A stretch of DNA of 64,000 bases from Craterostigma plantagineum (taxonomy: Eukaryota; Streptophyta; Magnoliopsida; Lamiales; Linderniaceae). The notes beneath the pieces were generated by a model. The model made no database searches. It saw only the letters and a program-made list of their open reading frames with translations, and had not been told where the DNA came from. Where the stretch lies: positions 124,001 through 188,000 of the forward strand of contig JAPQWV010000655.1 in NCBI GenBank assembly GCA_027422505.1, read 5' to 3'. This document shows, in pieces, positions 15,598 to 64,000 of this stretch. The translations under genes and the position numbers were made by a program. Each line of letters opens with the position of its first letter. Position 1 is the first letter of the stretch.

Positions 15598-16450
15598 ACC
15601 TCTTTTGGTTTTGAGGCTAACTCTGTTGAGGATTGTGTGTATCACAAATTCAGTGGGAGCAGGTTTATCTTTTTGGTCTTGTACGTAGACGACATCTTAC
15701 TAGCTAGCAGCGATATTAATTTACTTCGGGACACCAAGAGATTTCTTTCGGGTAATTTTGACATGAAAGATCTAGGGGAAGCTTCTTTTGTATTAGGGAT
15801 CCAGATTCACCGTGATCGCTCACAGGGAACTCTTGGATTTATCACAAAAGAGCTACATTGAAAAGGTACTGCAAAGGTTTAGCATGGAAAATTGTCGTCC
15901 ACATGACACTCCAGTCTCAAAAGGTGATAAATTCAGCCTCAAACAGTGTCCGGATAACATTTTAGAATCCAAGCACATGAAGGATATACCATATGCGTCG
16001 GCAGTGGGAAGTTTAATGTACGCACAGGTTTGCACCAGACCTGATTTGGCGTTCATTGTAGGACTGCTTGGTCGATACCAAAGCAATCTGGGTAGAGAAC
16101 ATTGGGTAGCAGCCAAAAGGGTCTTTCGATATCTTCAAAAGACGAATGATTATATGCTCACATACAGAAAGTCAGAGTATTTGGAGATCATTGGGTATTG
16201 TGACACTGATTTTGCGGGATGCCTGGACAGCCGCAAATCGACATCTGGTTATGTTTTTATGTTGGCTGGGGGAGCGATTTCTTGGAGGAGTGTCAAACAG
16301 ACACTTATCGCTTCATCTACGATGGAGGCAGAATTTATAGCTTGCTACGAGGCCTCCAACCAGGCTGTTTGGCTCCGCAATTTAGTGACAGGACTTAAAG
16401 TTGTCAATTCTGTTGAACGATCAATAAAGCTATTCTGTGACAACAATTAG
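15598..16450 (+). pseudogene. copia pol, 3' half (RT catalytic region and RNase H)
   Basis: Downstream of the LINE the copia reverse transcriptase resumes with the catalytic YVDD motif (15682-15693, LYVDDILLASSD) and continues through LGIQIHRDRSQGTL to the RNase H domain (GYCDTDFAGCLDSRKSTSGY, then SSTMEAEF). One frame change lies near 15830. A TAG stop interrupts the RNase H C-terminus at 16448-16450. The same stop is present in the right-arm copy, so it predates the duplication. Residual coding-like sequence continues to about 16657. Confidence 0.9.
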
Positions 16451-17088
16451 GCACTCCTGTATTCCAATAACAACAGAAGCTCTTCTGGGTCTACGCACAT
16501 AGACATTAAGTTCCTGGTCGTGAAAGAACGAGTTCAGAGTAGATATATAATCATTGAGCATATAGGAACGAATTTTATGATTGCAGATCCACTTACTAAA
16601 GCGTTAGCGCCCGCTACATTTCATGAGCATGTTGCTCGTATGGGTGTAACGAATTAAGTTTTATGTCTTATCGTGGATTCTGTTATTCTGTGTTTAATGA
16701 TTATTGAATAAAGTTTCTTTAATACATGTTTGTGTCATGACATTTGGGTTTTTCAGATATCCATTAGTTTATCTCTGAATTCTGATCTCACTAAATTAGG
16801 ACAAGTTGGAAATAAACATGCGTGATCAACTGAGCATGTAATTTCCATGCTACACATCCACACTTGGTCTATGTCGTTCGATGGAGTTGGTGTCCGTGAT
16901 TACTGTGGGTTGAGTTACGATAAATGTATAACGACTACCCCTCTTTAGTTCTTGCATCGACAATATTGGTGGACGAGATTGGTTTCATATGCGACACTTT
17001 GGTTATAGCTATATATCGGTACGATATTAAGTATACGACGAAGAGTGCTTATTGGATAAATACAACGTCTTATAGTCCAATGGGAGAT

Positions 17089-17631
17089 TGTTAGGTTGGG
17101 ACTATTCGACTATGTATTTCTAACACGATTAACGTTCGGACATGTAGACGTACATGTATTGTGGTATTAGTCGTATGCCAAATATTGTAACTAAGTCAAA
17201 AGGACCCATTCGGTGATTAATTAAATTTAAGGGGGTCTGTCGCAATTAAATAAGATGTGTGGGGTTAATTAATATTTGTGTAGAATTCTTGGGGGTTGGA
17301 ACGTAAATATCTGATGGGCTTATTTACGGGCCAGCCCATTATGACATCTATATATATGGGTGTGGTCCCTAAGCGCTGTACAACGAAACACACATCCGTC
17401 GCTCTCGTAAAACCCTATCGACTGTCGTCTAAAGATCTTTGGGGTACCCATCTTCCCCAAGCTAAAGGTTTCCCGTACGCGTACTTGGAAGATCACATAC
17501 CCGGTTCTCAATAAGAATGCTATGGAATTCTCAGGTACGTTTTCTATTTCCGCTGTATTTGATTAATTGTCTTAATTAATCCAATCAAGGTTAAAGTCGT
17601 TTTCGGATCCATACGGTCACGAATCCCAACA
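17089..17631 (+). repeat. copia 3' LTR
   Basis: 543 bp beginning TGTTAGGTTGGGA directly after the purine tract and ending ATCCCAACA. It ends only 510 bp upstream of the synaptotagmin start codon, so it may affect that gene's transcription. The mirror copy is 62646-63188. Confidence 0.9.
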
Positions 17632-17903
17632 AATTCCACAACACTCAGACCCAAAATGATAATTGTACTTTTGAGTGCTGACACGATTGGCTATAGGGGG
17701 TCAATGAGAAGTCAAAGATTTTATTTTTAACAAGTATATGATTGGAAGTAGATATCGTAATTAAACCAGAATCGCAAAATCCCCAATTTATATTTTACTA
17801 GCGATTGTCCTCTCCGAACTTCTGCGTCGCGACCACACAATGGAGTGACACGTGTCCTTTCTTTGGGCGGGTTTCAGTTGAGCCTCTTCGTAACTTTCAA
17901 AAG

Positions 17904-17929
17904 CTCTCTCTCTCTCTCTCTCTCTCTCT
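17904..17929. repeat. (CT)13 microsatellite in the synaptotagmin 5' region
   Basis: Pure CT run about 213 bp upstream of the start codon, probably within the 5' UTR or promoter. The other arm has a longer tract (62341-62373), so the two copies differ here. Confidence 0.95.
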
Positions 17930-18141
17930 TTCAATGGCTATTCAATAAATTTCCTTCTCTAGTTTATAACGTTACTAAGAACCACCCTCCCCCTATACAA
18001 CCACTGTTTGTAGTTTTCCCATTCAATTAAGTTTGCTGTTGTCAACTCTTTTTTTCCATTTTTAACTTTCAAAATAATTTCTGTTCATTTCATCGATTCA
18101 TTTCCATTTCTGCGCTTTTTTATCTAACAACACAGAAAAAG

Positions 18142-21100
18142 ATGGGATTACTGAGCAGTTTACTGGGAATTTTCGGCTTTGGAATTGGTTTTCTCTTTGG
18201 TCTCTTGACTGGGTTTTTCTGTTTCCTGTACCCTCCATCAGAAGACATGAACGTGCGCACCCTCAAATTCTCAATCAGTTCTACATTAATTTTTTTTTTC
18301 AAATTAATTCAACTTAAAAATCTTTCTGATATCAGAATGGTACTTCATTTTTTCCATATTTTTTTTTGGTTTAGGAAGCTGAAACGAAGCCAATCAGTGA
18401 AGTTGATGATGCACTTATGTTAGAAGATATGATGTCTGAGATTCCTCTGTGGGTAAAAAGCCCTGATTATGAACGAGTGAGCATCTCCTCCTCAACCTTT
18501 CTATATCCCAAATTAAATCTTCTTTTTTTCTTTTACTTTTTTTTATTGGAATCTGTTTTGGTTCTTCCTTAGGTTGATTGGCTGAACAGATTCCTTCTAA
18601 ACATGTGGCCTTTCCTTGACAAGGTACATATGTTTATGTGGCATGTGTTTGTGTGTGTTTAAACGCAGGGAGCACTAATTTTTCTATTTCTCAGGCGATT
18701 TGTAAAGTGATTAGAACCACTACAGAACCAATATTTGCTGATTACATTGGGAAATATAATATTGAATCGATCGAATTCAAGAACCTTAGCCTCGGAAATC
18801 TTCCGCCAACTATTCATGGTGAGGTTGTCCACCAACTTCTTTCGATGGTAAAGAGTTATTGTAAGAAAACGAAAATTTCTTCGCCTCTATTCGACAGGGC
18901 TTAAGGTGATGGAGACAAACGAGAGGGAATTAGTTATGGAACCAGCAATGAAATGGGCAGGAAATCCAAACATTGTTGTTGCTATAACTATTGTATCTAT
19001 ACAAATCAGAATTCAGGTGATGATCATCTTCATCATTATTCATATGATATTTCCTTATTTTACATTTTTCTTCTTGTATTGTGCTTCTGATGAATCGCAA
19101 TACCTCACTCAGTTGGTGGATTTGCAAGTGTTTGCTGCTCCGAGGATTACTTTGAAGCCTCTTGTGCCAAATATTCCCTGTTTCGCAAACGTAGTTGTAT
19201 CATTGATGGACAAGGTTGCAATTAAATTAAGCTTTCTTTAATTAATAAGCTCTTCGACTCAATACAGTTCGAGTTTTTCTTGATCGATTCGATGTTAAAA
19301 AAATCCTGCAGCCACATATAGACTTTGGAATAAAGGTATTAGGTGCTGATATCATGTCCATCCCTGGCCTTTATAGATACATTCAGGTAATAATTATCCA
19401 TTACTTCTGATCACAGTATCATTATCATATATATTTGCTCTTTGTAAATTTTCTTTAATTTATTTTCCTCAGGAGAGAATCAAGAAAGAAGTTGCAAGTC
19501 TGTATCTCTGGCCAAAGTGTCTCGAATTGCCTGTTCTCGATGCCTCAGCGTAATTTGTTCGACTTCAATTTCTCTCAACAACACTCTAATTCTTTGATTA
19601 ATTTCTTACATCCTCACAATAATGAAAATATATATATGAAATGTGTGTGTGTTATTTACATTTTCTTTTTGCAGTGTGGCTGTGAAAAAGCCAGTCGGGA
19701 TTTTACACGTGAAAGTGTTGCGTGCATCGAAGCTTCTGAAGATGGATTTGCTAGGCTTATCCGATCCTTACGTGAAGCTAAGCCTAAGCGGCGACAAACG
19801 ACCTTCGTCGAAGAAAACGACCGTAAAGAAGAAGACATTAAACCCCGTTTGGAACGAGGACTTTAAGCTCTCCGTAAAAGACCCTCAGTCTCAAATTCTC
19901 CTCATAGACGTCTTCGATTGGGACAAGGTTCACTTCAGTTCATATTCAACCATTGAAAGAATAAGAATTTTTCGTTCTTTTGAAGCTCAATATTAACATT
20001 TTTGTATGTATAAAAGGTGGGCACACATGATAGATTGGGAAGTCAAATGTACCCAACGAAGCTGCTAACGGCGAACGAGCCAAAGGAAGTAACCCTCGAA
20101 CTGTTGAAGGACACGAGCAAATCGATCGAGCCTCACGGCGGAAGCAAGAAACAGAGAGGGTTGTTAACGCTTGAGCTCAAGTATGCGCCTTTCAGAGAGG
20201 ATTTACTAAGCGATAGTTTTAGTGGAGTTATTGCGGAAGGGTATAATCGTAAAAGCAGCGTTCTCCAACGGGATGATCCAAGTGGAGCTGGCTTACTTCT
20301 CGTGACAGTGCAAGGCGCTCACGACGTGGAGGGTTCGCGCCATAATAATCCTTACGTCGCGGTGATTTTCAGGGGAGAGACTAAAAAATCAAAGGTAATT
20401 TTTTATTATTATTTTCTTAACAAGGGCGTAGTCTCCAGTGTTAGGGGTATGGGTGATTCTGCTCCCTCATATTTCGAAATGTCACTTGTTAAATGTGCTG
20501 CGTAACGATGCTCACGTGCGTTTAAGTCAAAGAAGAAGAGTTATGAGAGTTTTAAGTTGATTAAAATGAAATTCTCTTACGTATTAAATTCATCTCAACT
20601 AGCGGTTACATTAATGTTTTGGCCCAAATAGGTTCATTGGTGATTAAAAGCGACATTTTAGAATATGGAAACTAGAACGGAAACGCCCATACCCCAAACA
20701 CTGAACTAAAAACGTGGTCATTCCTTTTAATAAACCATATGTTGACAGTTCACGGTTGATTTTACATATTTGAATAGCCGTAGCAGATGAAACTTTTCGC
20801 ACATTTGCAGATGATGAGGAAGACTCGAAACCCACTGTGGAACGAAGAGTTCCAATTCTTGCTCGAAGAACCTCCATTGAAGGACAACATCCATATCGAA
20901 GTTGTCAGCAAAAGGACGAGCTTTAGCCTCTATTCGAAGGTACGTTACTTACAAAATATATGATTGAAAGTCGCATCATAACTGCAGTAATCACAATCTT
21001 GAAACTGCACTTAAGAAAGATCATATTATACATACAGTAGAAACTCTATAAATTAATACGGTTGGGACAGGCCAAATTTATTAATTAAAAGAGTTATTAA

Positions 21101-21703
21101 TTAATCGATAAATTAATAATTATTAATTTATCGATAAATTAATATTTTATTAATTTATAGTGTATATAACTTTCAAACTTCCCAAACATCAAATGCAAGG
21201 GGAAATTTCTTGTTGACCTATGAGAAAACAATGCCAGGAATTCTTACAATGATAAGGACAACTAGAGATAATGTGCAAGGGTAAATTGATTTCAACAAAA
21301 AACAAATGACAATTGATTCATTTTTCAAGTAATCTTTGTTCATGTAATATGAGAATGTTTTTACTTATGGAATTATTAATTTATAATTTATACGGGACCT
21401 ATAGAATTATCAAAAGTCTATTATCTTATAATTTTAGAGAATTATTAATTTAGTACGTTATCCCCAAGTCGGGACCGGCCGGAAATATTATATTAAAGAG
21501 TTTATTAAATTATCGAGTATTAATTTATAGAGTTTTTACTGTATATAGTTCAATTAGTACTTTTATTATTGCAGGAATCTTTAGGGCATGTGGACATTCA
21601 TCTTGGTGATGTCGTGCACAACGGTCGTATCAATCAGAAGTACCATTTGATAGATTCAAAGAATGGTGTTATTCATGTTGAGCTAAGGTGGAAATCCATA
21701 TGA
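18142..21703 (+). CDS. SYT: Plant synaptotagmin (SYT2/SYT3-like), TM-SMP-C2A-C2B, left-arm copy
   Basis: Twelve exons with GT-AG borders and matching phases: 18142-18252, 18375-18476, 18573-18623, 18695-18818, 18898-19016, 19113-19214, 19312-19386, 19473-19549, 19675-19927, 20017-20394, 20811-20939, 21575-21703; 1650 nt, 549 residues, no internal stop. Residues 3-30 are a glycine-rich membrane anchor. The SMP lipid-transfer domain lies at about 65-250 (PLWVKSPDYERVDWLN, then PLVPNIPCFA). C2A at about 258-375 keeps five acidic Ca2+ ligands (D278, D284, D335, D337, D343). C2B at about 430-535 has E443/N449 and serine/lysine in place of ligands, as is usual for the plant family. Family members tether ER to plasma membrane and bind acidic lipids. 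Intron 11 holds an Emigrant-like MITE, and a copia LTR ends 510 bp upstream. Length matches the family. Exact paralogue number is not certain. Confidence 0.93.
21035..21541. mobile_element. Emigrant-like MITE (pogo/Tc1-mariner type) in synaptotagmin intron 11, left arm
   Basis: About 507 bp with terminal inverted repeats CAGTAGAAACTCTATAAATT / CAGTAAAAACTCTATAAATT and TA at both ends (21033-21034, 21542-21543). This end sequence and the TA duplication match the Emigrant family known from Arabidopsis. The interior is very AT-rich with nested TTAATTAAT/ATTAATTAA palindromes and has no coding. It sits wholly inside an intron. Confidence 0.85.
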
Positions 21704-22483
21704 TCCATTGTTAGAAGCAACTATGATATCCTCCATATATATGAAGGTTTTGCATGTAGAGCGTTCAATTTTAATTCATAAGACGAGAAGATTTCTGAAT
21801 ATCGGTTAAGCCAAGTGTTGGAAGACATATAACAATTAATTGGAAGACTGTTATTATAAAGTTTCCTATTCATAATACTAGTGTGTTTATCACACCCAAT
21901 AAGTGTGCAAATAATTTAAGTATTTATATTTTGAAGATTTTATTAAGTTATTTAAAAAATAAAATTTTATTTTAAGGATACAATTGCAATAAATTAAAGG
22001 GTAAAGTCCGCTATACCCCTACGTAGTTTTACTAAAATGCAAGATATGATTTTTTATAAACATCCTTATGATTTTGAATAGCACGGTCAACACTTTCCAC
22101 GCGTGTTTGCATCACATCCGCTGCTACTGCGACTACGATAGGATTTTACCACATATATTTGAAAGAATATGACTAAAAGACCCCTCTAAGTCATCATGTT
22201 CTTCCCAATGATTATTTAAAAAAATGGCATTTGACATAGTCAACGTTAAAAAATAGCCTCCTAAATGGTAAAAGACCAATGTACACTTACTTTGCGTGAA
22301 AGACTATTTTACCCTTCTTTAGTGGCAATCAACAACACTTAACGAGAATCTGAAAAGGCAACAGTAAATAAAAAAGCACCCATTAACCCTTTCACTTTAC
22401 ATTCACGGGCCTTTGCAAAATCGATCAAGATTCCCTCTTCTCTTCACACCTTTCTTCACAGTCGAATTTCAAGCTCCGAATCC
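21704..22483. other. Interval between synaptotagmin and the DUF1985 remnant
   Basis: The first part is the likely 3' UTR of synaptotagmin. From about 21995 the text changes to GGTAAAGTCCGCTATACCCC and later AAAGACTATTTTACCC-like phrases, which resemble long terminal repeats of Mutator-like elements. No matching inverted partner was found beyond the DUF1985 remnant, so this is only a suspicion. No gene is seen. Confidence 0.4.
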
Positions 22484-22599
22484 ATGGCATTTCAGGCGAG
22501 ATCCCAAACAGTGAAGGTAATTTTTTTAATTTATGAAGAATCCGTCGGCAATTGAAGCTCCGAATTGCACGGGATCCTAATTTGAGGTCGCAGGCTACC

Positions 22600-23310
22600 C
22601 TAATTCGAAGCACAGGGTACTCGTACTTGCAATGGTAGGGGACCCGTGCTTTGAAGGTCAGGGATTCGTGTGGAAGTGCAGGGGATCCGTGGGGCAAAGC
22701 GCAGGGGTCCATGCAATGGACTCGTGCTTTGTCGCGCTGGGGACATTTGAAGCATAGCACAGGACCCATGCTTGCTAGCGCTAGAGACCCGTGCGATGCC
22801 GCGCTGGGGACCCGTGCGTGCCAGCGCGGGACGCTCGCAACATAGCACGGGACCCGTGCGCGCTATCGAGGGACCCGTGCGCGCTATCGAGGGACCCGTG
22901 CGTGCCAACGCGGGGACCCGTGCTTTGTCGCGCTGGGGACCCTCGAAGCATAGCACGGGACCCGCGCGCATAAGCACGGGACCCATGCTTGCTGTGCTGG
23001 GGACCCGTGCGCGCTAGCGAGGGACTCTCGCAACATGCGCGCGGGATCCATGCTTGCTGTGCTAGGGACCCGTGCGCGCTAGCGAGGGACCCGTGCTACA
23101 TAGCACGGGACCCGTGCTTGCTAGTGTTGCGGACCCATGCGTGCAACTGCTGTGGACCCGCACATAAGAGCAGGGGTCCTGCGCAGCACGCACGGGTCCC
23201 CAGCGCAGCATAGCTGAGAGTCCCACTTGAGGGCGTTGTGGACCAGTACGTGCATGGCACTAGCCCCGTACGTAAGCTCAGGGTCCCCGCACAGCATGGC
23301 AGGGAACCCG
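22600..23310. repeat. GC-rich minisatellite, GGGACCCGTGC core, left arm
   Basis: About 700 bp of imperfect tandem units of roughly 20-30 bp with core GGGACCCGTGC followed by variable GCGCTAGCGA, GTGCCAGCGC or TTTGTCGCGCTG. Two adjacent 21-bp units (GGGACCCGTGCGCGCTATCGA) are exact. The GC content is far above the surrounding DNA. Long open frames on both strands here are a by-product of the repeat. It occupies the first intron of the DUF1985 remnant. Confidence 0.9.
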
Positions 23311-24659
23311 TGCTTTAAATAACTTATCATTCGATCTAATTAGCTTACATTTCTTTTTTTAGGTTACATTAAATAAGCAAATTGCCGGAGGCAACGATGA
23401 CCGTGATTGCCGGCTACATATCACGTCACGCTACTGCGAAACGAGCTAGAAGATTGTCGATTGGCTAAACGAGGATGAGCTGGCAGTGCTTAAGGAAGGG
23501 AGTCCGTTCGACAATCTCGTCGACGCTGCCGCCGGTTTCAATCTATCGACGTAGATGTTGTGGTATCTCATAAAGAGACAAGCAGAGCTTCACGATCGTG
23601 ATGAGCTTTGGATGATCCTCGGGAAGAAACCACTCTGTTTTTCAAAAACGGAGTATTGCCTAATCACGGGGCTGAAGTTCGCAGCCGAACCGGCAGTGAA
23701 CGCCCGGGAGGAATTCATCCAGCGACATTTCCCGACAAAAACAGCGGTGACGATTCATTTGTCGAACGTTGAGCAGCGGTTGGAGGAGTTGGCTGCCAAC
23801 AATATGGTTCGCGTCAACGACGAGAAGTTAAAGTTGGCGAACCTCTACTTTGCCGGCTCCGTCTTGCTGTCCCGACGTTCCAAGAAGGATACCACCCTTC
23901 CTTCTTGGATTGTTTATTTGGTCGAAGACTCGGCGTCCTTCGACGGTTACCCTTGGGGCACCGTGGCTTTCCAAGCGGCAATAAGATCGCTAAAACGAGA
24001 TCTAAAGGAAGTTAAGGAGAGTCTGTTGGTCCGAGGATTCGTACATCCACTTCAGGTTAGGGTTTTATCTTTGAATGATCTTGTGAGGTTAGGATTTTGT
24101 CTGGTTGCTAAAATTGTTTGTTTCTTTGGTCTTCAGATATTAGCGTACGAATGCGTACCGAAGCTCGCTGAGAAATACGATGAAGTAGAGAGTTGAGCAT
24201 GTGAGGCCGCATAATGCATGGCCGCGTATATGCTGGTGGGTGACGAGGGAGTGGCATAGGAAGGGATGTCCGAAGTTGTCCGCTATTGCCAAGGCCGCGC
24301 ATGGGTCCCAAGTACGAGGGTTATTAATGCCGATCGGAGAAGAGACGCAGGCCGGCTATCTTCGGGACAACGACTTGGGCGGCGGCGAGCGAGACGATGT
24401 GTACGATAGGGTGGTGACCCTACTCATGGACAGAGTGGACGTTACGTGCACTCGGCGGGCGGGGTTGCAATAGAAGCCAATTATGAGGCAGAATCCGTCC
24501 CTCATCTCCCTATTAGATCACGGCAAGACGAAGAGAGGGGCATGAGCTCTGATTATGTGCCGCCGTCCATTCATGGAGGCCACTTCGATATGCCGCCAAG
24601 ATCGCCGCCACACGCAGGGCCATCGCACGGGTATGGGTATCCCTCGTCGGAGCAATTCG

Positions 24660-24830
24660 ACGAATTTTCACGCCGCATGGACGGACAGTTCGACGAATTT
24701 GGCGGTCGGTTCAACACACTTAGAGGTAGGTTCGAGCAGTTCAGAAACGACTTTGCGCAATTTCGAGACGACTTCTCGCAATTCCGAGACGATTACGCTC
24801 GACGCTTCGAGACGTACGAGGAGCGATTGA
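24660..24830 (+). other. Coiled-coil heptad repeat segment in the DUF1985 remnant
   Basis: The frame starting at 24446 encodes successive seven-residue units of the form RFxxFRx/DFxQFRD (for example DFAQFRD, DFSQFRD), with phenylalanine at fixed heptad positions. This predicts a phenylalanine-rich coiled coil. The DNA itself repeats with 21-bp periodicity, so the protein repeat grew by DNA duplication. Confidence 0.75.
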
Positions 24831-25443
24831 ACTCGATGCAAGGGTTGGGGAAAGCATCGGAGTAGTTGCGCAGTCGTTGCAAGAGCTACGGAACGACTGG
24901 ACAAGTTTATTCGGTCCATACACACATACCGACGCGCCGTATCATGGTAACTATCTTTACCCCTAATTCAAATTTAATTACGGGCGTAGCTTACAATATA
25001 ATATGCATCGTAGGCGACGAGCCGACCGAAGGGGCGTGGGATGCATTTGTGATACCGGATCCACCCAGTTCGACGACCACGTGGGGATGGGATGGGGCCG
25101 TGGATGGGACTCGGCGTCTTACGTTGCACCTCAATGGGATGATGACGTCGACCGACACAGCGAGCATTATCATGAGGTGGACCCATCGACTTGGAGGGGC
25201 GTTGACTGGGATCAGTCGACTGGTGCGACTACGGCAGACAAGGGAAAAGCTGTGGTCGAGGCGACCCCGGAGGAGCGGCAGAAAAATCCGTCGAGGTGGC
25301 TGCAGTCGCCATACACTGAGCCTCCCTCGACTGGTCATGTGGATGTGAGGCTCTCAGCCGTGGATGTTCATCTTTCCAAAAAACTCCTTATGTGGGGGGC
25401 CGTAGAGCACAATACAGGCCTTGGCGGACGACGACTACGTTAG

Positions 25444-25800
25444 AACTGGGTTAAAAAATTTTTATATAGCCTAGAATTTCAAAGAAGAACCTCTCCTTAA
25501 CATCGTAATGGTCTTCCACTAGAATTTTTTATGTACTTGAATAACGTCAAAGTGCTCATTGCTTAGCAGAAGGAAAAAAGAAAATAGAATTCATATTCAA
25601 AATAAGTAAATACAAAACAAGCAACCCTGACCAGCAAAACCGTTTCTACGTAAGAATAGTCGTTCTATGAAGGAACTATGTAATTCCTGAAAACTATATT
25701 CATTCTACGTAAGATTTCATTTGATTGCACTTGTTGTAGATTAATTTCACCATTTTCTCTATCTCATGTGTAAAGAAAAATTTAGGTGAAATATGTTTTG
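25444..25800. other. Non-coding stretch between DUF1985 remnant and copia remnant
   Basis: AT-rich, with inverted short phrases GTTTCTACGTAAGAATAGTC and ATTCTACGTAAGATTTC. No gene is recognised. It may include the decayed 3' end of the copia element that lies beside it. Confidence 0.4.
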
Positions 25801-31115: not shown

Positions 31116-31345
31116 CTAAATTCGTAAAGTATAGCACATCAACGATGAAACATGCCAACATATACATCTATATATACGTCTGAATTTGTCATTAGTTCAA
31201 CCTTTTCAAAAAAATTTCCTATCAAATTTTCATTAACATGTACACTAACATGCATTGCATCTACATTGATGGACATATATAATAATCAATACATTGCATG
31301 CAACACTAAGGGTGATATGCCCCACTTTACAAATTCCTTTTTTTT

Positions 31346-50170: not shown

Positions 50171-51739
50171 CTTTTTTTATTAAGCTTATTTATAATAATA
50201 ACTCTTTGTCTACTGAAAAAAGTTTTGGATATCACTGTACATACATGCGGGTAGTTGTTGTGACAATAATAATAGTGCGACATATGGAGAAATCACATGC
50301 GATAAAATAACTTGTTGTTCCACTAATAATAAAGGCATGGTTCCACTTTTTCAATTAAGTCTATCATAATGTAGTTGGATTTCATAAAAAGAAGCAATAT
50401 ATTAATTAGTGTTAATTATTGTTAATAATTAACCTTTAAATCCTACATCAATTTGTATTTTTTGGTTGCTTTAATATGTTCTGTTTTCTCTTAATTAAAT
50501 GGTAAGTTAGGGTACGCCTTCTATATTTGTAAGAAATTTCATCTTCAGAAAAACATCACAATCCGAATTGCATTAGTTACATTACATAGACGACTGATAA
50601 TTCTTTAAGTTCTTCTGTTAGTATTACATGAAGCGTAAATTATTTGTATTCTGACAAATTTATTTTTTCTAACCGGCTACGAAGAACACCCGTACATACA
50701 TTCAGTTTTTGAGTTTACAAAGCTCAATTTCTTTTATGTTAGATTTTGTTCTAGACAAATCAAAATAGCAAACACATTAAACTCTAATTAGTTATTATGT
50801 TTTATGTTAGTAGACACCAGGTCATCCAGTCCTATGGCAATATGCAATTATAGTTCTCAACATATGCGAATAGAGAGTCACAACATTAACCGTGGAAGAG
50901 AAAGAATGAAACAATAGTATGTTTCGTTACAATGCCATTTATATTTCATCCTTCATGTCATTTCCAAAGCTATGTGGTATGACTAACTATTGCTACTAAG
51001 ACTGCAGAGTTCGAAAGCATTGCATTTTGGAGTTGATGACCCAAGTTCTTTTGGAGCCAGGAGAGCGCTCACGCTGGCTACACTTTTGGCATAATTGTTA
51101 TCAAGTCTAGAACCATATATCTTACTAGTTGAGAATTTTAGTGGCCATCACCGTGCTGTCGTACTACATTTTACCTTTTTCTTTGTATACCTCTAGATGT
51201 GTTCAGTTATAAAATTTTAATTGTTTCATTCTAATGAACGACCATGATGAACCTATTCGTTTTCATTACATCAGATATGCAAATATCTTCTGCTTTGCTT
51301 GCAATGTAAAGTATGTAATTCAACTGAAAATAGCTCTCATTTCTTCAATATTGATATACGCGTTGAGTATATATTAATAAAAACTTCGTTCATGTACACA
51401 AAAAAAAGTACTGTTCTCACATGAAACGCACATGTTATCTACTAGTTATCGAAAGGACAAAGGAAAGAAATAACGAATCTTGTTCACGGCGAACTTGCCT
51501 CTACTTCTGGTTGTCAATGATGAAAGTACCCATTTCGAGGCCGCATATTTCCAATAAGTTTGATGTGATTTCCCTTACGTGTTATTATCATATGCTTTAA
51601 TTATGTGTGTTTTATATGCTTATTTTACATGTATCATTGTGTTAAGTCATTGTATGTTTGCGTGCTTTGTGTCAATAATAATGGTTATTATGTCCTTGTT
51701 ATTAAGGATGTTTATACAATGTATACGAGCATGTGCAAT

Positions 51740-53960
51740 GGAGAATTATGTCATACAGACTGCGGCAACGACTCATATGATTTGGAGAAATAAGAAATAT
51801 TTTGATCTCTTGAAATGAAAAGGAGAGAGTGCTAATACTATATCGGGTAGCAAAAGTATAATTAAAAGCTCCGAAAGAGCTAGTACTTTATTACTTAGAG
51901 GAATAAGGCTAATAATTGAAAATGTCTTATATTCTCCAAAATCTCAAAGAAATTTATTAAACTTTAAAGTTATTAGAAATAACGAATATTTTGTTGAAAC
52001 AGCAGGAAAATGAGACGTTGAATATTTGCACATGACAGCGATTTCGAATGGTAAAAGAATCGTTGAAATCTTACCTTCATTTGACTCCGGGTTATATTAT
52101 GCATATCTGAGAAAACTTGAATCATATGCTATTATAAACCAGAAGTTTACCGATGATAGTATATTTAGTGTTTGGCATGACCGATCAGGCCATCCCGGTT
52201 CAATTATGATGCGAAAGATAATTGAAAATTCATATGGACATTTTATAAAGAACCAGAGGATTCTTCAATCTATGAATTATCTTGTGCCGCTTGCTCCAAA
52301 GAGAAGTTAATTATTCGATCATCACCAATGAAAGTAAAGAATGGATTTATTGTATTTTTGGAACGTATACATGGTGACTGTGGGCCAATACCTCCATCAT
52401 GTGGATCGTTTAAATATTTTCTGCTATTGGTTGATGCATCAAATAAATTCTCATTTAACGTAGCACTACATGAAACTAATGAAATGAATGAGATGAATGA
52501 GAATGAGGATTATGAACAAGGTCTGTAAACGAATGCAGACAACGAAAAGATTGGCCAAAATGGAAAGATACGATCGAGGCAAAAATTAAAATCACTTGAG
52601 AAACGAAAAGTTTTCGAGCCTGTAGTCTGTATACCAGGAAATGTGGAGCCTGTTTGGGTTTTCCAAGAGAATTGAAAACGGTGAAATTGTAAGATACAAA
52701 GCACGCCTTATTGCACAATGTTTTTCATAATGACCTGGTATTGATTATGAGCCGACATATTTTCGTGTGGTGGATGCAACTACTTTTCGTTATTTAATTC
52801 TGGTAGTACGTGAAGGGCTCGATATGTATCTTATGGATGTTGTAATTGCGTATGTAAATGGTACACTTGATAGCGATATATATAACTTCCCGAGGGATTT
52901 AAGTTGCCTGAAAATTCGGGACATCGAGATGAGTACTCAATTATACTAAACAAATATGGATTAAAGCAATCTGGACAAATGTGGTATAACGCCTAAGTGA
53001 ATATTTATTGAAAGAGGGGTATAAAAATGATCAAATTTGCCCCTGCATCTTTATGAGAAGGTCTGAAAAAGAGTTTGTTATTATTGCAGTATATGTTGAT
53101 GATATCAATATAATCGGAACTCCTGATGAGTTATCGAAAGCTGTTGATTGTTTGAAAAAGGAGTTCGAAATGAAATATCTAGGCAAAACAAAATTTAATC
53201 TTGGACTCCAAATTGAGTATCTAAAAAACCGTATATTTGTCCATCAACAGACTTATACGAAGGTGCTAAAGAGATTTCACATGGACAAAACTCATCCATC
53301 GGATACTCCAATAATTGTTCGATCATTAGATGTGAATAGGGATCCGTTCAGACCACGTGAAAATGATGAGGAATTACTTGGTCCTAAAGTACCATATCTT
53401 AGTGTCATTGGAGCACTAATGTATCTTACGAGTCATACGCGACCTGATATAGCATTTGTTGTAAATTTATTGTCAAGATACAGTTCTCTTTAATTCTTAG
53501 ACATTGGAACGGAGTTAAATGAAGATTCTGGTGCCTTCAAGGAACAACTGATATGTGATTGTTCTATTTTGATGAGTTACAAGTAGATTTCGTTGGGCAT
53601 GTTGATCCTGGGTTTCCCGACTCACATAATGCTCGATCGCAAACTGGTTATTTATTTGCATATGGTGGAACCACTATTTCGTGGCGATCAGTTAAACAAA
53701 GTTTTAATGACTACTCCATCTAATCATGCAGAAATTCTAGCTATTTGTGAAGCCAGCCGAGGATGTGTTTGGCGATCAGTGATTAAACATATACGACATT
53801 GTTGTGGGTTGTTATCGAAAGAATTACTCCCAACGATTTTATATGAAAATAATGCAGCATTATTGCTCAATTAAAGGAAGGATATATTAAAGGTGACAGA
53901 ACAAAACATATTTCACCTAAATTTTTCTTTACACATGAGATAGAGAAAATGGTGAAATTA
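51740..53960 (+). pseudogene. Ty1/copia pol remnant (protease to RNase H), right arm
   Basis: Mirror of 25801-28124. Blocks in order: protease-like (TAATTHMIW, near 51755), GAG-pre-integrase (52026-52310), integrase core start (52328-52528), RT (52767-52949 and 53008-53493 with VYVDDINIIG) and RNase H (53593-53960). Frames change between blocks. It forms one plus-strand copia element with the gag at 41100, pulled apart by the gypsy-type, tandem-repeat and Helitron-type DNA. Confidence 0.88.
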
Positions 53961-54258
53961 ATCTACAACAAGTGCAATCAAATGAAATCTTACGTAGAAT
54001 GAATATAGTTTTCAGGAATTACATAGTTCCTTCATAGAACGACTATTCTTACGTAGAAACGGTTTTGCTGGTCAGGGTTGCTTGTTTTGTATTTACTTAT
54101 TTTGAATATGAATTCTATTTTCTTTTTTCCTTCTGCTAAGCAATGAGCACTTTGACGTTATTCAAGTACATAAAAAATTCTAGTGGAAGACCATTACGAT
54201 GTTAAGGAGAGGTTCTTCTTTGAAATTCTAGGCTATATAAAAATTTTTTAACCCAGTT

Positions 54259-57217
54259 CTAACGTAGTCGTCGTCCGCCAAGGCCTGTATTGTGCTCTAC
54301 GGCCCCCCACATAAGGAGTTTTTTGGAAAGATGAACATCCACGGCTGAGAGCCTCACATCCACATGACCAGTCGAGGGAGGCTCAGTGTATGGCGACTGC
54401 AGCCACCTCGACGGATTTTTCTGCCGCTCCTCCGGGGTCGCCTCGACCACAGCTTTTCCCTTGTCTGCCGTAGTCGCACCAGTCGACTGATCCCAGTCAA
54501 CGCCCCTCCAAGTCGATGGGTCCACCTCATGATAATGCTCGCTGTGTCGGTCGACGTCATCATCCCATTGAGGTGCAACGTAAGACGCCGAGTCCCATCC
54601 ACGGCCCCATCCCATCCCCACGTGGTCGTCGAACTGGGTGGATCCGGTATCACAAATGCATCCCACGCCCCTTCGGTCGGCTCGTCGCCTACGATGCATA
54701 TTATATTGTAAGCTACGCCCGTAATTAAACTTGAATTAGGGGTAAAGATAGTTACCATGATACGGCGCGTCGGTATGTGTGTATGGACCGAATAAACTTG
54801 TCCAGTCGTTCCGTAGCTCTTGCAACGACTGCGCAACTACTCCGATGCTTTCCCCAACCCTTGCATCGAGTTCAATCGCTCCTCGTACGTCTCGAAGCGT
54901 CGAGCGTAATCGTCTCGGAATTGCGAGAAGTCGTCTCGAAATTGCGCAAAGTCGTTTCTGAACTGCTCGAACCTACCTCTAAGTGTGTTGAACCGACCGC
55001 CAAATTCGTCGAACTGTCCGTCCATGCGGCGTGAAAATTCGTCGAATTGCTCCGACGAGGGATACCCATACCCGTGCGATGGCCCTGCGTGTGGCGGCGA
55101 TCTTGGCGGCATATCGAAGTGGCCTCCATGAATGGACGGCGGCACATAATCAGTGCTCATGCCCCTCTCTTCGTCTTGCCGTGATCTAATAGGGAGATGA
55201 GGGACGGATTCTGCCTCATAATTGGCTTCTATTGCAACCCCGCCCGCCGATGCACGTAACGTCCACTCTGTCCATGAGTAGGGTCACCACCCTATCGTAC
55301 ACATCGTCTCGCTCGCCGCCGCCCAAGTCGTTGTCCCGAAGATAGCCGGCCTGCGTCTCTTCTCCGATCGGCATTAATAACCCTCGTACTTGGGACCCAT
55401 GCGCGGCCTTGGCAATAGCGGACAACTTCGGACATCCCTTCCTATGCCACTCCCTCGTCACCCACCAGCATATACGCGGCCATGCATTATGCGGCCTCAC
55501 ATGCTCAACTCTCTACTTCATCGTATTTCTCAGCGAGCTTCGGTACGCATTCGTACGCTAATATCTGAAGACCAAAGAAACAAACAATTTTAGCAACCAG
55601 ACAAAATCCTAACCTCACAAGATCATTCAAAGATAAAACCCTAACCTGAAGTGGATGTACGAATCCTCGGACTAACAGACTCTCCTTAACTTCCTTTAGA
55701 TCTCGTTTTAGCGATCTTATTGCCGCTTGGAAAGCCACGGTGCCCCAAGGGTAACCGTCGAAGGACGCCGAGTCTTCGACCAAATAAACAATCCAAGAAG
55801 GAAGGGTGGTATCCTTCTTGGAACGTCGGGACAGCAAGACGGAGCCGGCAAAGTAGAGGTTCGCCAACTTTAACTTCTCGTCGTTGACGCGAACCATATT
55901 GTTGGCAGCCAACTCCTCCAACCGCTGCTCAACGTTCGACAAATGAATCGTCACCGCTGTTTTTGTCGGGAAATGTCGCTGGATGAATTCCTCCCGGGCG
56001 TTCACTGCCGGTTCGGCTGCGAACTTCAGCCCCGTGATTAGGCAATACTCCGTTTTTGAAAAATAGAGTGGTTTCTTCCCGAGGATCATCCAAAGCTCAT
56101 CACGATCGTGAAGCTCTGCTTGTCTCTTTATGAGATACCACAACATCTACGTCGATAGATTGAAACCGGCGGCAGCGTCGACGAGATTGTCGAACGGACT
56201 CCCTTCCTTAAGCACTGCCAGCTCATCCTCGTTTAGCCAATCGACAATCTTCTAGCTCGTTTCGCAGTAGCGTGACGTGATATGTAGCCGGCAATCACGG
56301 TCATCGTTGCCTCCGGCAATTTGCTTATTTAATGTAACCTAAAAAAAGAAATGTAAGCTAATTAGATCGAATGATAAGTTATTTAAAGCACGGGTTCCCT
56401 GCCATGCTGTGCGGGGACCCTGAGCTTACGTACGGGGCTAGTGCCATGCACGTACTGGTCCACAACGCCCTCAAGTGGGACTCTCAGCTATGCTGCGCTG
56501 GGGACCCGTGCGTGCTGCGCAGGACCCCTGCTCTTATGTGCGGGTCCACAGCAGTTGCACGCATGGGTCCGCAACACTAGCAAGCACGGGTCCCGTGCTA
56601 TGTAGCACGGGTCCCTCGCTAGCGCGCACGGGTCCCTAGCACAGCAAGCATGGATCCCGCGCGCATGTTGCGAGAGTCCCTCGCTAGCGCGCACGGGTCC
56701 CCAGCACAGCAAGCATGGGTCCCGTGCTTATGCGCGCGGGTCCCGTGCTATGCTTCGAGGGTCCCCAGCGCGACAAAGCACGGGTCCCCGCGTTGGCACG
56801 CACGGGTCCCTCGATAGCGCGCACGGGTCCCTCGATAGCGCGCACGGGTCCCGTGCTATGTTGCGAGCGTCCCGCGCTGGCACGCACGGGTCCCCAGCGC
56901 GGCATCGCACGGGTCTCTAGCGCTAGCAAGCATGGGTCCTGTGCTATGCTTCAAATGTCCCCAGCGCGACAAAGCACGAGTCCATTGCATGGACCCCTGC
57001 GCTTTGCCCCACGGATCCCCTGCACTTCCACACGAATCCCTGACCTTCAAAGCACGGGTCCCCTACCATTGCAAGTACGAGTACCCTGTGCTTCGAATTA
57101 GGGTAGCCTGCGACCTCAAATTAGGATCCCGTGCAATTCGGAGCTTCAATTGCCGACGGATTCTTCATAAATTAAAAAAATTACCTTCACTGTTTGGGAT
57201 CTCGCCTGAAATGCCAT
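54259..57217 (-). pseudogene. DUF1985-type gene remnant, right arm
   Basis: Mirror of 22484-25443 with the same exons, nonsense codons and frameshift. A one-base indel near 55249 changes the frame joining the region before the coiled-coil segment, and one C-to-Y codon difference lies in the DUF1985 core. The Ulp1 peptidase domain is missing here as well. Confidence 0.7.
56390..57100. repeat. GC-rich minisatellite, GCACGGGTCCC core, right arm
   Basis: Reverse complement of 22600-23310, in the first intron of the DUF1985 remnant. The number and order of units appear the same in both arms. Confidence 0.9.
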
Positions 57218-58003
57218 GGATTCGGAGCTTGAAATTCGACTGTGAAGAAAGGTGTGAAGAGAAGAGGGAATCTTGATCGATTTTGCAAAGGGCCCGTGAA
57301 TGTAAAGTGAAAGGGTTAATGGGTGCTTTTTTATTTACTGTTGCCTTTTCAGATTCTCGTTAAGTGTTGTTGATTGCCATTAAAGAAGGGTAAAATAGTC
57401 TTTCACGCAAAGTAAGTAAGGGTACATTGGTCTTTTACCATTTAGGATGCTATTTTTTAACGTTGACTATGTCAAAGGCCATTTTTTTAAATAATCATTG
57501 GGAAGAACATGATGACTTAGAGGGGTCTTTTAGTCATATTCTTTCAAATATATGTGGTAAAATCCTATCGTAGTCGCAGTAGCAGCGGATGTGATGCAAA
57601 CACGCGTGGAAAGTGTTGACCGTGCTATTCAAAATCATAAGGATGTTTATAAAAAATCATATCTTGCATTTTAGTAAAACTACGTAGGGGTATAGCGGAC
57701 TTTACCCTTTAATTTATTGCAATTGTATCCTTAAAATAAAATTTTATTTTTTTAAATAACTTAATAAAATCTTCAAAATATAAATACTTAAATTATTTGC
57801 ACACTTATTGGGTGTGATAAACACACTAGTATTATGAATAGGAAACTTTATAATAACAGTCTTCCAATTAATTGTTATATGTCTTCCAACACTTGGCTTA
57901 ACCGATATTCAGAAATCTTCTCGTCTTATGAATTAAAATTGAACGCTCTACATGCAAAACCTTCATATATATGGAGGATATCATAGTTGCTTCTAACAAT
58001 GGA

Positions 58004-61000
58004 TCATATGGATTTCCACCTTAGCTCAACATGAATAACACCATTCTTTGAATCTATCAAATGGTACTTCTGATTGATACGACCGTTGTGCACGACATCA
58101 CCAAGATGAATGTCCACATGCCCTAAAGATTCCTGCAATAATAAAAGTACTAATTGAACTATATACAGTAGAAACTCTATAAATTAATACTCGATAATTT
58201 AATAAACTCTTTAATATAATATTTCCGGCCGGTCCCGACTTGGGGATAACGTACTAAATTAATAATTCTCTAAAATTATAAGATAATAGACTTTTGATAA
58301 TTCTATAGGTCCCGTATAAATTATAAATTAATAATTCCATAAGTAAAAACATTCTCATATTACATGAACAAAGATTACTTGAAAAATGAATCAATTGTCA
58401 TTTGTTTTTTGTTGAAATCAATTTACCCTTGCACATTATCTCTAGTTGTCCTTATCATTGTAAGAATTCCTAGCATTGTTTTCTCATAGGTCAACAAGAA
58501 ATTTCCCCTTGCATTTGATGTTTGGGAAGTTTGAAAGTTATATACACTATTAATTTATCGATTAATAATTATTAATTTATCGATTAATTAATAACTCTTT
58601 TAATTAATAAATTTGGCCTGTCCCAACCGTATTAATTTATAGAGTTTCTACTGTATGTATAATATGATCTTTCTTAAGTGCAGTTTCAAGATTGTGATTA
58701 CTGCAGTTATGATGCGACTTTCAATCATATATTTTGTAAGTAACGTACCTTCGAATAGAGGCTAAAGCTCGTCCTTTTGCTGACAACTTCGATATGGATG
58801 TTGTCCTTCAATGGAGGTTCTTCGAGCAAGAATTGGAACTCTTCGTTCCACAGTGGGTTTCGAGTCTTCCTCATCATCTGCAAATGTGCGAAAAGTTTCA
58901 TCTGCTACGGCTATTCAAATATGTAAAATCAACCGTGAACTGTCAACATATGGTTTATTAAAAGGAATGACCACGTTTTTAGTTCAGTGTTTGGGGTATG
59001 GGCGTTTCCGTTCTAGTTTCCATATTCTAAAATGTCGCTTTTAATCACCAATGAACTTATTTGGGCCAAAACATTAATGTAACCGCTAGTTGAGATGAAT
59101 TTTAATACGTAAGAGAATTTCATTTTAATCAACTTAAAACTCTCATAACTCTTCTTCTTTGACTTAAACGCACGTGAGCATCGTTACGCAGCACATTTAA
59201 CAAGTGACATTTCGAAATATGAGGGAGCAGAATCACCCATACCCCTAACGCTGGAGACTACGCCCTTGTTAAGAAAATAATAATAAAAAATTACCTTTGA
59301 TTTTTTAGTCTCTCCCCTGAAAATCACCGCGACGTAAGGATTATTATGGCGCGAACCCTCCACGTCGTGAGCGCCTTGCACTGTCACGAGAAGTAAGCCA
59401 GCTCCACTTGGATCATCCCGTTGGAGAACGCTGCTTTTACGATTATACCCTTCCGCAATAACTCCACTAAAACTATCGCTTAGTAAATCCTCTCTGAAAG
59501 GCGCATACTTGAGCTCAAGCGTTAACAACCCTCTCTGTTTCTTGCTTCCGCCGTGAGGCTCGATCGATTTGCTCGTGTCCTTCAACAGTTCGAGGGTTAC
59601 TTCCTTTGGCTCGTTCGCCGTTAGCAGCTTCGTTGGGTACATTTGACTTCCCAATCTATCATGTGTGCCCACCTTTTATACATACAAAAATGTTAATATT
59701 GAGCTTCAAAAGAACGAAAAATTCTTATTCTTTCAATGGTTGAATATGAACTGAAGTGAACCTTGTCCCAATCGAAGACGTCTATGAGGAGAATTTGAGA
59801 CTGAGGGTCTTTTACGGAGAGCTTAAAGTCCTCGTTCCAAACGGGGTTTAATGTCTTCTTCTTTACGGTCGTTTTCTTCGACGAAGGTCGTTTGTCGCCG
59901 CTTAGGCTTAGCTTCACGTAAGGATCGGATAAGCCTAGCAAATCCATCTTCAGAAGCTTCGATGCACGCAACACTTTCACGTGTAAAATCCCGACTGGCT
60001 TTTTCACAGCCACACTGCAAAAAGAAAATGTAAATAACACACACACATTTCATATATATATTTTCATTATTGTGAGGATGTAAGAAATTAATCAAAGAAT
60101 TAGAGTGTTGTTGAGAGAAATTGAAGTCGAACAAATTACGCTGAGGCATCGAGAACAGGCAATTCGAGACACTTTGGCCAGAGATACAGACTTGCAACTT
60201 CTTTCTTGATTCTCTCCTGAGGAAAATAAATTAAGGTTGCGTTTGGATTGGTGTATTTGAATTGAAATCCGTGATTTGAAATTATGAATTCTGAAATCCA
60301 AATTTTAAATACAAATCCACCGTTTGGCAAACGTTAGGATTTCGGAAATCCGAATTTCAAAATGTGCTCGAGCTCTCGAGCCGGCTTGAGCCATCGGTCA
60401 TCGAGCTCGAGCTGGCTCACCGAGTTCGCGAGCCGACTTGACTCATCGATCGTCGAGTTCGCAAGCCGGCTCGACTCATCGGTCGTCGAGCTCGCGACTT
60501 GACTTGACTCACGTCGTCGAGCTCGTCGGCCGACTCGACTCGTCGTTCGTCGAGCTCGCTGGTCGGTTCGACTCATCGTTTGTCAATAATAATAATACTA
60601 ATAATTATTATTATTATTATTTAAGAAAATAATCACGGCAAGATTTGGTATTTCGAAAACGGACCGTTTCCGATCGAATTTCAAATCCATCAAAAGACAA
60701 GCGCTCGGATTCTCCTCGGATTTGGATGAAATCGAAATCCAAATCCGAGCGGTTGCCAAACGGGTGATTTGAATGAAATTCGGATTTCAAATCGAAATCC
60801 CCCGATCCAAACGTAGCATAAAGAAAATTTACAAAGAGCAAATATATATGATACTGTGATCAGAAGTAATGGATAATTATTACCTGAATGTATCTATAAA
60901 GGCCAGGGATGGACATGATATCAGCACCTAATACCTTTATTCCAAAGTCTATATGTGGCTGCAGGATTTTTTTAACATCGAATCGATCAAGAAAAACTCG

Positions 61001-62127
61001 AACTGTATTGAGTCGAAGAGCTTATTAATTAAAGAAAGCTTAATTTAATTGCAACCTTGTCCATCAATGATACAACTACGTTTGCGAAACAGGGAATATT
61101 TGGCACAAGAGGCTTCAAAGTAATCCTCGGAGCAGCAAACACTTGCAAATCCACCAACTGAGTGAGGTATTGCGATTCATCAGAAGCACAATACAAGAAG
61201 AAAAATGTAAAATAAGGAAATATCATATGAATAATGATGAAGATGATCATCACCTGAATTCTGATTTGTATAGATACAATAGTTATAGCAACAACAATGT
61301 TTGGATTTCCTGCCCATTTCATTGCTGGTTCCATAACTAATTCCCTCTCGTTTGTCTCCATCACCTTAAGCCCTGTCGAATAGAGGCGAAGAAATTTTCG
61401 TTTTCTTACAATAACTCTTTACCATCGAAAGAAGTTGGTGGACAACCTCACCATGAATAGTTGGCGGAAGATTTCCGAGGCTAAGGTTCTTGAATTCGAT
61501 CGATTCAATATTATATTTCCCAATGTAATCAGCAAATATTGGTTCTGTAGTGGTTCTAATCACTTTACAAATCGCCTGAGAAATAGAAAAATTAGTGCTC
61601 CCTGCGTTTAAACACACACAAACACATGCCACATAAACATATGTACCTTGTCAAGGAAAGGCCACATGTTTAGAAGGAATCTGTTCAGCCAATCAACCTA
61701 AGGAAGAACCAAAACAGATTCCAATAAAAAAAAGTAAAAGAAAAAAAGAAGATTTAATTTGGGATATAGAAAGGTTGAGGAGGAGATGCTCACTCGTTCA
61801 TAATCAGGGCTTTTTACCCACAGAGGAATCTCAGACATCATATCTTCTAACATAAGTGCATCATCAACTTCACTGATTGGCTTCGTTTCAGCTTCCTAAA
61901 CCAAAAAAAAATATGGAAAAAATGAAGTACCATTCTGATATCAGAAAGATTTTTAAGTTGAATTAATTTGAAAAAAAAATTAATGTAGAACTGATTGAGA
62001 ATTTGAGGGTGCGCACGTTCATGTCTTCTGATGGAGGGTACAGGAAACAGAAAAACCCAGTCAAGAGACCAAAGAGAAAACCAATTCCAAAGCCGAAAAT
62101 TCCCAGTAAACTGCTCAGTAATCCCAT
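58004..62127 (-). CDS. SYT: Plant synaptotagmin (SYT2/SYT3-like), right-arm copy
   Basis: Complement of exons 62017-62127, 61794-61895, 61647-61697, 61452-61575, 61254-61372, 61056-61157, 60884-60958, 60140-60216, 59762-60014, 59295-59672, 58749-58877 and 58004-58132. All splice borders checked match those of the left copy and no stop or frameshift was seen, so it encodes the same 549-residue TM-SMP-C2A-C2B protein. It differs by having a 584-bp Tourist-like MITE in intron 7 and a slightly shorter Emigrant-like MITE in intron 11. The two genes face each other across about 36 kb. Both keep the five C2A aspartates. Both also share the copia LTR upstream, so their promoters should behave alike unless position matters. 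Confidence 0.92.
58166..58653. mobile_element. Emigrant-like MITE in synaptotagmin intron 11, right arm
   Basis: 488 bp with the same TIRs and TA flanks as the left copy. It lacks about 19 bp of the nested TTAATT palindrome near the 3' TIR, which may reflect slippage in the palindrome. Confidence 0.85.
60235..60818. mobile_element. Tourist-like MITE present only in the right arm
   Basis: 584 bp with terminal inverted repeats GGTTGCGTTTGGATTGG / TGCTACGTTTGGATCGG and TAA duplications (60232-60234, 60819-60821). The left arm has the exact empty site (AAATTAAAGAAAAT near 19456). The interior has subterminal GAAATCCGAATTTC-type inverted repeats and a GTCGAGCTCG-rich centre (60365-60580) with repeated CGAGCTCG and GACTCATCG units. 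It lies in synaptotagmin intron 7. TSD TAA and the GTTTGGAT ends fit PIF/Harbinger. Confidence 0.88.
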
Positions 62128-62336
62128 CTTTTTCTGTGTTGTTAGATAAAAAAGCGCAGAAATGGAAATGAATCGATGAAATGAACAGAAATTATTTTGA
62201 AAGTTAAAAATGGAAAAAAAGAGTTGACAACAGCAAACTTAATTGAATGGGAAAACTACAAACAGTGGTTGTATAGGGGGAGGGTGGTTCTTAGTAACGT
62301 TATAAACTAGAGAAGGAAATTTATTGAATAGCCATT

Positions 62337-62340
<4 letters not shown>

Positions 62341-62373
<33 letters not shown>
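62341..62373. repeat. (GA)n microsatellite, right-arm synaptotagmin 5' region
   Basis: Pure GA run about 33 bp long, 7 bp longer than its left-arm partner. About 213 bp upstream of the start codon of the minus-strand gene. Confidence 0.95.
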
Positions 62374-62376
<3 letters not shown>

Positions 62377-62645
62377 TTGAAAGTTACGAAGAGGCTCAAC
62401 TGAAACCCGCCCAAAGAAAGGACACGTGTCACTCCATTGTGTGGTCGCGACGCAGAAGTTCGGAGAGGACAATCGCTAGTAAAATATAAATTGGGGATTT
62501 TGCGATTCTGGTTTAATTACGATATCTACTTCCAATCATATACTTGTTAAAAGTAAAATCTTTGACTTCTCATTGACCCTCTATAGCCAATCGTATCAGC
62601 ACTCAAAAGTACAATTATCATTTTGGGTCTGAGTGTTGTGGAATT

Positions 62646-63188
62646 TGTTGGGATTCGTGACCGTATGGATCCGAAAACGACTTTAACCTTGATTGGATTA
62701 ATTAAGACAATTAATCAAATACAGCGGAAATAGAAAACGTACCTGAGAATTCCATAGCATTCTTATTGAGAACCGGGTATGTGATCTTCCAAGTACGCGT
62801 ACGGGAAACCTTTAGCTTGGGGAAGATGGGTACCCCAAAGATCTTTAGACGACAGTCGATAGGGTTTTACGAGAGCGACGGATGTGTGTTTCGTTGTACA
62901 GCGCTTAGGGACCACACCCATATATATAGATGTCATAATGGGCTGGCCCGTAAATAAGCCCATCAGATATTTACGTTCCAACCCCCAAGAATTCTACACA
63001 AATATTAATTAACCCCACACATCTTATTTAATTGCGACAGACCCCCTTAAATTTAATTAATCACCGAATGGGTCCTTTTGACTTAGTTACAATATTTGGC
63101 ATACGACTAATACCACAATACATGTACGTCTACATGTCCGAACGTTAATCGTGTTAGAAATACATAGTCGAATAGTCCCAACCTAACA
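62646..63188 (-). repeat. copia 3' LTR, right arm
   Basis: Mirror of 17089-17631, with TGTTGGGATTCG at 62646 on the plus strand and CCTAACA at 63188. It ends about 520 bp from the right-arm synaptotagmin start codon. Confidence 0.9.
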
Positions 63189-64000
63189 ATCTCCCATTGG
63201 ACTATAAGACGTTGTATTTATCCAATAAGCACTCTTCGTCGTATACTTAATATCGTACCGATATATAGCTATAACCAAAGTGTCGCATATGAAACCAATC
63301 TCGTCCACCAATATTGTCGATGCAAGAACTAAAGAGGGGTAGTCGTTATACATTTATCGTAACTCAACCCACAGTAATCACGGACACCAACTCCATCGAA
63401 CGACATAGACCAAGTGTGGATGTGTAGCATGGAAATTACATGCTCAGTTGATCACGCATGTTTATTTCCAACTTGTCCTAATTTAGTGAGATCAGAATTC
63501 AGAGATAAACTAATGGATATCTGAAAAACCCAAATGTCATGACACAAACATGTATTAAAGAAACTTTATTCAATAATCATTAAACACAGAATAACAGAAT
63601 CCACGATAAGACATAAAACTTAATTCGTTACACCCATACGAGCAACATGCTCATGAAATGTAGCGGGCGCTAACGCTTTAGTAAGTGGATCTGCAATCAT
63701 AAAATTCGTTCCTATATGCTCAATGATTATATATATACTCTGAACTCGTTCTTTCACGACCAGGAACTTAATGTCTATGTGCGTAGACCCAGAAGAGCTC
63801 CTGTTGTTATTGGAATACAGGAGTGCCTAATTGTTGTCACAGAATAGCTTTATTGATCGTTCAACAGAATTGACAACTTTAAGTCCTGTCACTAAATTGC
63901 GGAGCCAAACAGCCTGGTTGGAGGCCTCGTAGCAAGCTATAAATTCTGCCTCCATCGTAGATGAAGCGATAAGTGTCTGTTTGACACTCCTCCAAGAAAT
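63189..64000 (-). pseudogene. copia RNase H end, right arm (cut by window)
   Basis: Mirror of 16277-17088, including the 3' non-coding region, the TAG stop in RNase H (near 63829) and the SSTMEAEF region close to the window end. The element continues outside the window, so whether the nested LINE is also duplicated cannot be seen. Confidence 0.88.

Follow-up and report, generated by a model that had tools for sequence, protein, structure and literature searches.

The palindrome in the window, meaning the whole 64,000-nucleotide stretch of DNA analyzed, has an asymmetric center: its two inner edges are not equivalent, and 37357|37358 is the only new inner junction seen. This asymmetry and the single new inner junction go beyond the initial annotation, which had proposed two possible origins, a genuine segmental duplication in inverted orientation and a head-to-head joining of two haplotypes by the assembler. 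Both origins survive, and both fit the variants between the arms, but the anatomy needed revision, since the edge at 42366/42367 lies inside an intact LTR. Judging from the sequence, we consider it probable (roughly 0.6) that the arms are two haplotypes of one locus joined head to head during assembly, which we hold to be likelier than a real inverted duplication. The features on which this argument is built are collected in Table 1.

Table 1. Features of the palindrome and its center (window coordinates)
Feature	Position	Strand	Description
Left arm	16277..37357	+	Inverted match to 42367-64000, 99.4%; outer limit 16277 set by the window edge at 64000
Right arm	42367..64000	-	Reverse complement of left arm; continues past the window edge
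Single-copy segment between arms	37358..42366		5,009 bp; at least its right part, 41151-42366, is flanking sequence native to the right arm
New inner junction	37357..37358		Homology ends here, inside an LTR
Difference patch	37303..37340	+	Five one-base indels and one substitution relative to the right arm
LTR retroelement T, right copy	41990..46944	-	Both termini complete; 3' LTR 41990-43065 (1,076 bp)
Target-site repeat CTCAT	41985..41989		At 3' end of T, right copy
Target-site repeat CTCAT	46945..46949		At 5' end of T, right copy
T, left copy	32777..37357	+	Same start as right copy; CTCAT at 32772-32776; cut 702 bases into 3' LTR
Decayed copia gag, first part	41151..41984	+	Inside spacer; frame read across the empty site of T
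Copia gag continuation, zinc-knuckle-like	46950..47024	+	Right arm, far side of T; frame across the empty site
Synaptotagmin-3-like gene, left copy	18142..21703	+	12 exons, 549 aa, 11 GT-AG introns, open CDS, C2 domain, homologs
Synaptotagmin-3-like gene, right copy	58004..62127	-	Complete; all 12 exons identical to left copy
MITE-like insertion	60235..60821	-	Right arm only; 587 bp including TTA repeat; intron 7 of synaptotagmin-3-like gene

Extent and Divergence of the Arms

Comparison of the window with itself yields two inverted matches, one pairing 16277-19457 with 60819-64000 (99.37% identity) and the other pairing 19455-37357 with 42367-60234 (99.44% identity). These bear out the earlier claim that the left arm recurs in mirror order in the right arm, and a match of 21 kb is beyond chance. 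The homology reaches base 64000, and the arms are at least 21.1 kb (left) and at least 21.6 kb (right) long. Paired coordinate sums, also given previously, amount to 80276-80277 on the outer side of the right-arm insertion and to 79689-79724 on its inner side, one higher at the end than had been claimed. The shift in these sums had been attributed to a MITE and is indeed due to the 587-bp insertion, which is flanked by a doubled TTA and whose empty site in the left arm is 19454/19455. The termini of the insertion carry imperfect terminal repeats that agree at 14 of the first 20 end positions, and we take the element to be a Harbinger-like MITE.

The initial annotation was also right that the two arms are not the product of reading one sequence twice, as substitutions fill 52 rows of the arm alignment and indels 35. 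In the divergence count, all rows at or beyond 37303 (the last 55 bp; 15 substitution rows and 1 indel row) were left out, as were 4 substitution rows beside a 9-bp indel at 29914, one of the adjacent pair 27464/27465, and position 36167 (an alignment shift). After this filtering, 31 SNPs (21 transitions and 10 transversions) remain, equivalent to an SNP divergence of 0.15%. The remaining indels number 34 and include the 587-bp insertion; 24 are of 1 bp, with the extra base on the left in 14 cases and on the right in 10. The kinds of variant include the MITE-like insertion, a microsatellite, and SNPs. In our judgment, an SNP divergence of this size together with a polymorphic insertion falls within ordinary heterozygosity. 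The same divergence also fits a real inverted duplication with an age of about 50 to 115 thousand years if 1.5e-8 to 6.5e-9 substitutions per site per year are assumed.

Ten differences were examined for polarity by using other repeat copies within the arm. The derived state lies on the left in 3 and on the right in 3, with 4 being weak or unresolved, and the presence of derived changes on both arms counts in favor of a haplotype join. We also considered whether one arm is simply the bad copy, and we rejected this idea on the same counts.

Another explanation is that the palindrome is old, and that gene conversion between its arms has kept them alike, as happens on sex chromosomes. Such a history would produce arms that are more than 99% identical around a short single-copy center with a gene inside, and the window shares the high arm identity and the enclosed gene with the gene-converting palindromes of mammalian sex chromosomes (PMC8981503). 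However, the window differs from those palindromes in its asymmetric center, in having nothing that indicates a sex chromosome, and in the SNP spacing, in which no clear conversion tracts are seen (chi-square 18.4 for 31 SNPs in 10 bins, P = 0.03; no SNP-free stretch exceeds 2.7 kb). Moreover, identical exons next to introns that differ, as are found in the gene described below, are not what gene conversion would leave. We regard this explanation as highly improbable.

The Two Inner Edges of the Palindrome

The status of each inner edge can be read from T, an LTR retroelement carried by both arms. In the orientation of the left arm, the right copy of T starts with TGTTACCCCC at 46944 directly after one CTCAT and ends with GACCGCATCA at 41990 directly before the other. 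Its 3' LTR contains TATAAATA, and the polypurine-like sequence AAAGGGGGAC lies upstream of this LTR. Because T, with its matching CTCAT repeats, crosses 42366/42367 unbroken, this edge is native, ancestral sequence. The possibility that 42366/42367 is itself a junction was thus rejected, and only 37357|37358 needs to be explained at the center. There, the left copy of T breaks off in the middle of its LTR, with 702 of 1,076 bases retained and unrelated sequence following; 377 bp of the right-copy LTR are without a counterpart in the left arm.

The insertion site of T was a copia gag, and the right copy of T splits this decayed frame such that gag parts flank it on both sides. Within the first part, 41151-41609 matches the Pfam family Retrotran_gag_2 with an E value of 1.8e-5 and 24.7 bits, which is below the curated cut-off of 27. 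When the short flanks of T are joined at the empty site, they form one frame, NNDEQC*RCSGLGH*SRTCRTPKHL, which from its motif we take to be the decayed zinc knuckle of a copia gag. The starts of the two LTRs of T align over 272 bp with 231 identical positions, 34 mismatches, and gaps at 14 positions, and because they differ to this extent, T must be far older than the divergence of the arms.

Of the 31 counted SNPs, 8 fall within one portion of T, 33141-35248, and 5 of these 8 are transversions, compared with 18 transitions and 5 transversions elsewhere. This cluster could reflect mis-polishing of a repeat or conversion from another copy.

The earlier description of a 5-kb spacer holds insofar as the segment between the arms is single-copy, but at least its right part is the right arm's own flank, as indicated by T and the continuity of the copia gag. 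We infer that the remaining part, 37358-41150, is native as well. No second copy of the spacer occurs in the window, and the only repeats within it are two short pairs, one direct (77 bp) and one inverted (29 bp). A terminal-repeat transposon spanning the whole spacer was considered and rejected, since in comparison with the window the spacer matches only itself and these two short internal pairs. At 39003-39244, the 29-bp inverted pair, which starts with CTCCCTCCGTCCC, encloses a 242-bp stretch that presumably resembles a Stowaway-type MITE.

Origin of the New Inner Junction

At 37357|37358, the extent of microhomology is 0 bp, comparison of the sequence on both sides gives no inserted bases, and no words of 6 or more nucleotides are shared between the last 60 nucleotides of the spacer end and the 80 nucleotides around the copied start. 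Just before the junction lies a patch of differences between the arms (37303 to about 37340), after which the last 23 bases up to the junction are identical. At the arm-wide rate, only 0.19 differences would be expected in 60 bp, and the probability of five or more is 1.6e-6, a value calculated post hoc. The edit distance near the junction is 7 when one base at the outer limit of the comparison is included.

If the arms are haplotypes, then the spacer, T, and the right arm would be contiguous sequence of one haplotype, and the left arm would be the other haplotype, reversed, with the source probably being a heterozygous Lamiales plant. The contig path would in this case have turned at 37357|37358, perhaps because of a chimeric long read or because a contig end had been left unpolished. 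We infer that the arms represent alleles and that the junction arose technically. That the junction lies inside an LTR and meets unrelated sequence without microhomology or insert counts for such a join, and the concentration of six differences in 60 bp, five one-base indels and a substitution, looks like uncorrected long-read error. Retained haplotypes are a recognized problem of long-read assemblies, as stated in PMC8178825. The window resembles the uncollapsed haplotypes and chimeric joins described in PMC8178825 and PMC12870357 in its near-identical, possibly allelic copies, its abrupt turn without homology, and the indel patch nearby. One Lamiaceae assembly paper (PMC11979756) reports haplotigs as well as possible misassembly where heterozygosity was 0.6%, although we claim no link to the window.

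Several features count against a haplotype join. The sequence is continuous with no Ns at the join, and the turn leaves the LTR midway rather than following a repeat. The 23 bases adjacent to the junction are identical, although raw-read error should extend to the junction itself. In addition, the account of fold-back artifacts in PMC12870357 gives frequencies of about 0.55-0.6% of ONT genomic reads and virtually none for PacBio HiFi, and defines these artifacts by a return within 200 bp, with one pictured read having ~2 kb between segments. In contrast, the palindrome in the window returns 5 kb away.

The main alternative is a real and young inverted duplication, which we hold to be a serious possibility but the less probable one. 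According to this explanation, a chromosome end broken at 37358 was joined to, or copied from, position 42367, located 5 kb inside itself or its sister, either through fold-back priming or through fusion of two unequally trimmed sister ends. The outcome would be that the 5,009-bp segment is left single-copy, and that the arm is copied in inverted orientation with a second synaptotagmin-3-like gene. One new inner junction, a single-copy spacer native to one arm, and continuous sequence without Ns are all in accord with such an event. The comparison with the human disomy-inversion junctions described in PMC3907307 points in the same direction and counts against a haplotype join: a single-copy spacer was present in 21 of the 21 sequenced, with sizes of 766-70,466 bp and a median of 3,428 bp, compared to 5,009 bp here. 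The window is thus like these human fold-back inverted duplications in having near-identical inverted arms, a spacer of a few kilobases derived from one side, and one new inner junction.

However, the human junctions in that same data set show microhomology of 2-8 bp in 13 cases, insertions in 5, and homologous repeats in 3, and the junction in the window is unlike all 21 in that it has none of these features. The window also differs from these cases in coming from a plant and in having arm ends that lie outside it. Furthermore, the sister-fusion (U-type) model, as outlined in PMC3907307, predicts no spacer, and unequal trimming must be added to explain one.

The patch beside the junction is compatible with both origins, being either uncorrected long-read error near a contig turn or the product of error-prone repair synthesis following a real break. 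In our judgment, error-prone repair would more often yield substitutions or templated inserts. Extra mutations within 4 Mb of junctions are noted in PMC9609164, a scale that is too coarse for the patch in the window.

A Synaptotagmin-3-Like Gene in Both Arms

The coding sequence of the synaptotagmin-3-like gene is without a difference between the arms over 1,650 bp, and the 1,912 bp of its introns carry 4 SNPs along with 6 indels. This distribution of 0 versus 10 differences yields P = 0.002, or P = 0.08 for SNPs alone. Similarly, at the whole-arm rate 5.5 differences would be expected in the coding sequence and none is seen (P 0.004), with SNPs alone giving an expectation of 2.6 (P 0.07). Because the coding sequence is unchanged beside 10 intron differences, alleles fit somewhat better than a redundant duplicate. 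Identical coding sequence with variable introns is as expected for two constrained alleles and is less expected for an inverted duplication, in which one copy would be redundant. However, a young duplicate could show the same pattern, and it counts against a haplotype join that SNPs alone do not separate coding sequence from introns and that several of the intron indels lie in low-complexity sequence.

In the right gene, the acceptor of intron 7 (exon 8 at 60140-60216) is preceded at a distance of 18 bp by the MITE-like insertion, which is absent from the left copy. Given this location, the insertion might disturb splicing of the right gene.

A protein homolog search, in which the 7,996 best candidates were scored, gave 1,901 hits, and the best 120 of these are considered here. 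The top-scoring match among these 120 is a 952-aa rice protein with 51% identity, and the next is from Buddleja with 76% identity; none of the 120 exceeds 77%. Apart from the rice protein, the best of these 120 matches are synaptotagmin-3-like proteins, chiefly from Lamiales. In a tree of 33 rows, comprising the window protein and 32 proteins chosen from the 120, the window protein falls within a group of 21 rows, without a resolved sister, whose named members are all Lamiales. Its end branch of 0.3 is the joint longest in this tree together with Ipomoea, and the longest among Lamiales rows.

Other Features of the Window

Both arms contain an open 213-aa reading frame for DUF1985 (23555-24196 and 55505-56146; Pfam E 1.6e-19 for the left copy), which lies beside a GC-rich array at 22.7-23.1 kb with repeat units of roughly 21-129 bp. 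Outside the compared arm, the region 11440-16450 holds a copia-like element whose gag_pre-integrs, Pol_BBD, and rve domains lie at 11440-12561. A LINE-like reverse transcriptase (13916-15370), which is accompanied by zf-RVT and lies on the opposite strand, apparently interrupts this element. The left flank also contains tandem direct duplications, namely 2568-3880 with 3934-5245 (97.7%) and 241-499 with 500-758 (98.1%). No Pfam family matched 15797-16450, and searches of the window with Rfam (gathering score) and a tRNA scan gave no matches.

Implications

If the palindrome results from a misjoin, then the synaptotagmin-3-like gene would be falsely doubled in the assembly. In this case, the window would also provide a simple sequence test for the genuine side of a palindrome, which is a nested transposon with matching target repeats that crosses the edge intact.

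It is also possible, although we lean against it, that the window holds a very young fold-back or sister-fusion palindrome with two intact convergent genes, whose primary junction can still be read together with its mutation patch. If real, the palindrome would be an early snapshot of a large plant inverted duplication, including its one junction, its native flank, the mutation patch, and the doubled gene, and would thus offer a natural example from plants of an inverted duplication with a native spacer.
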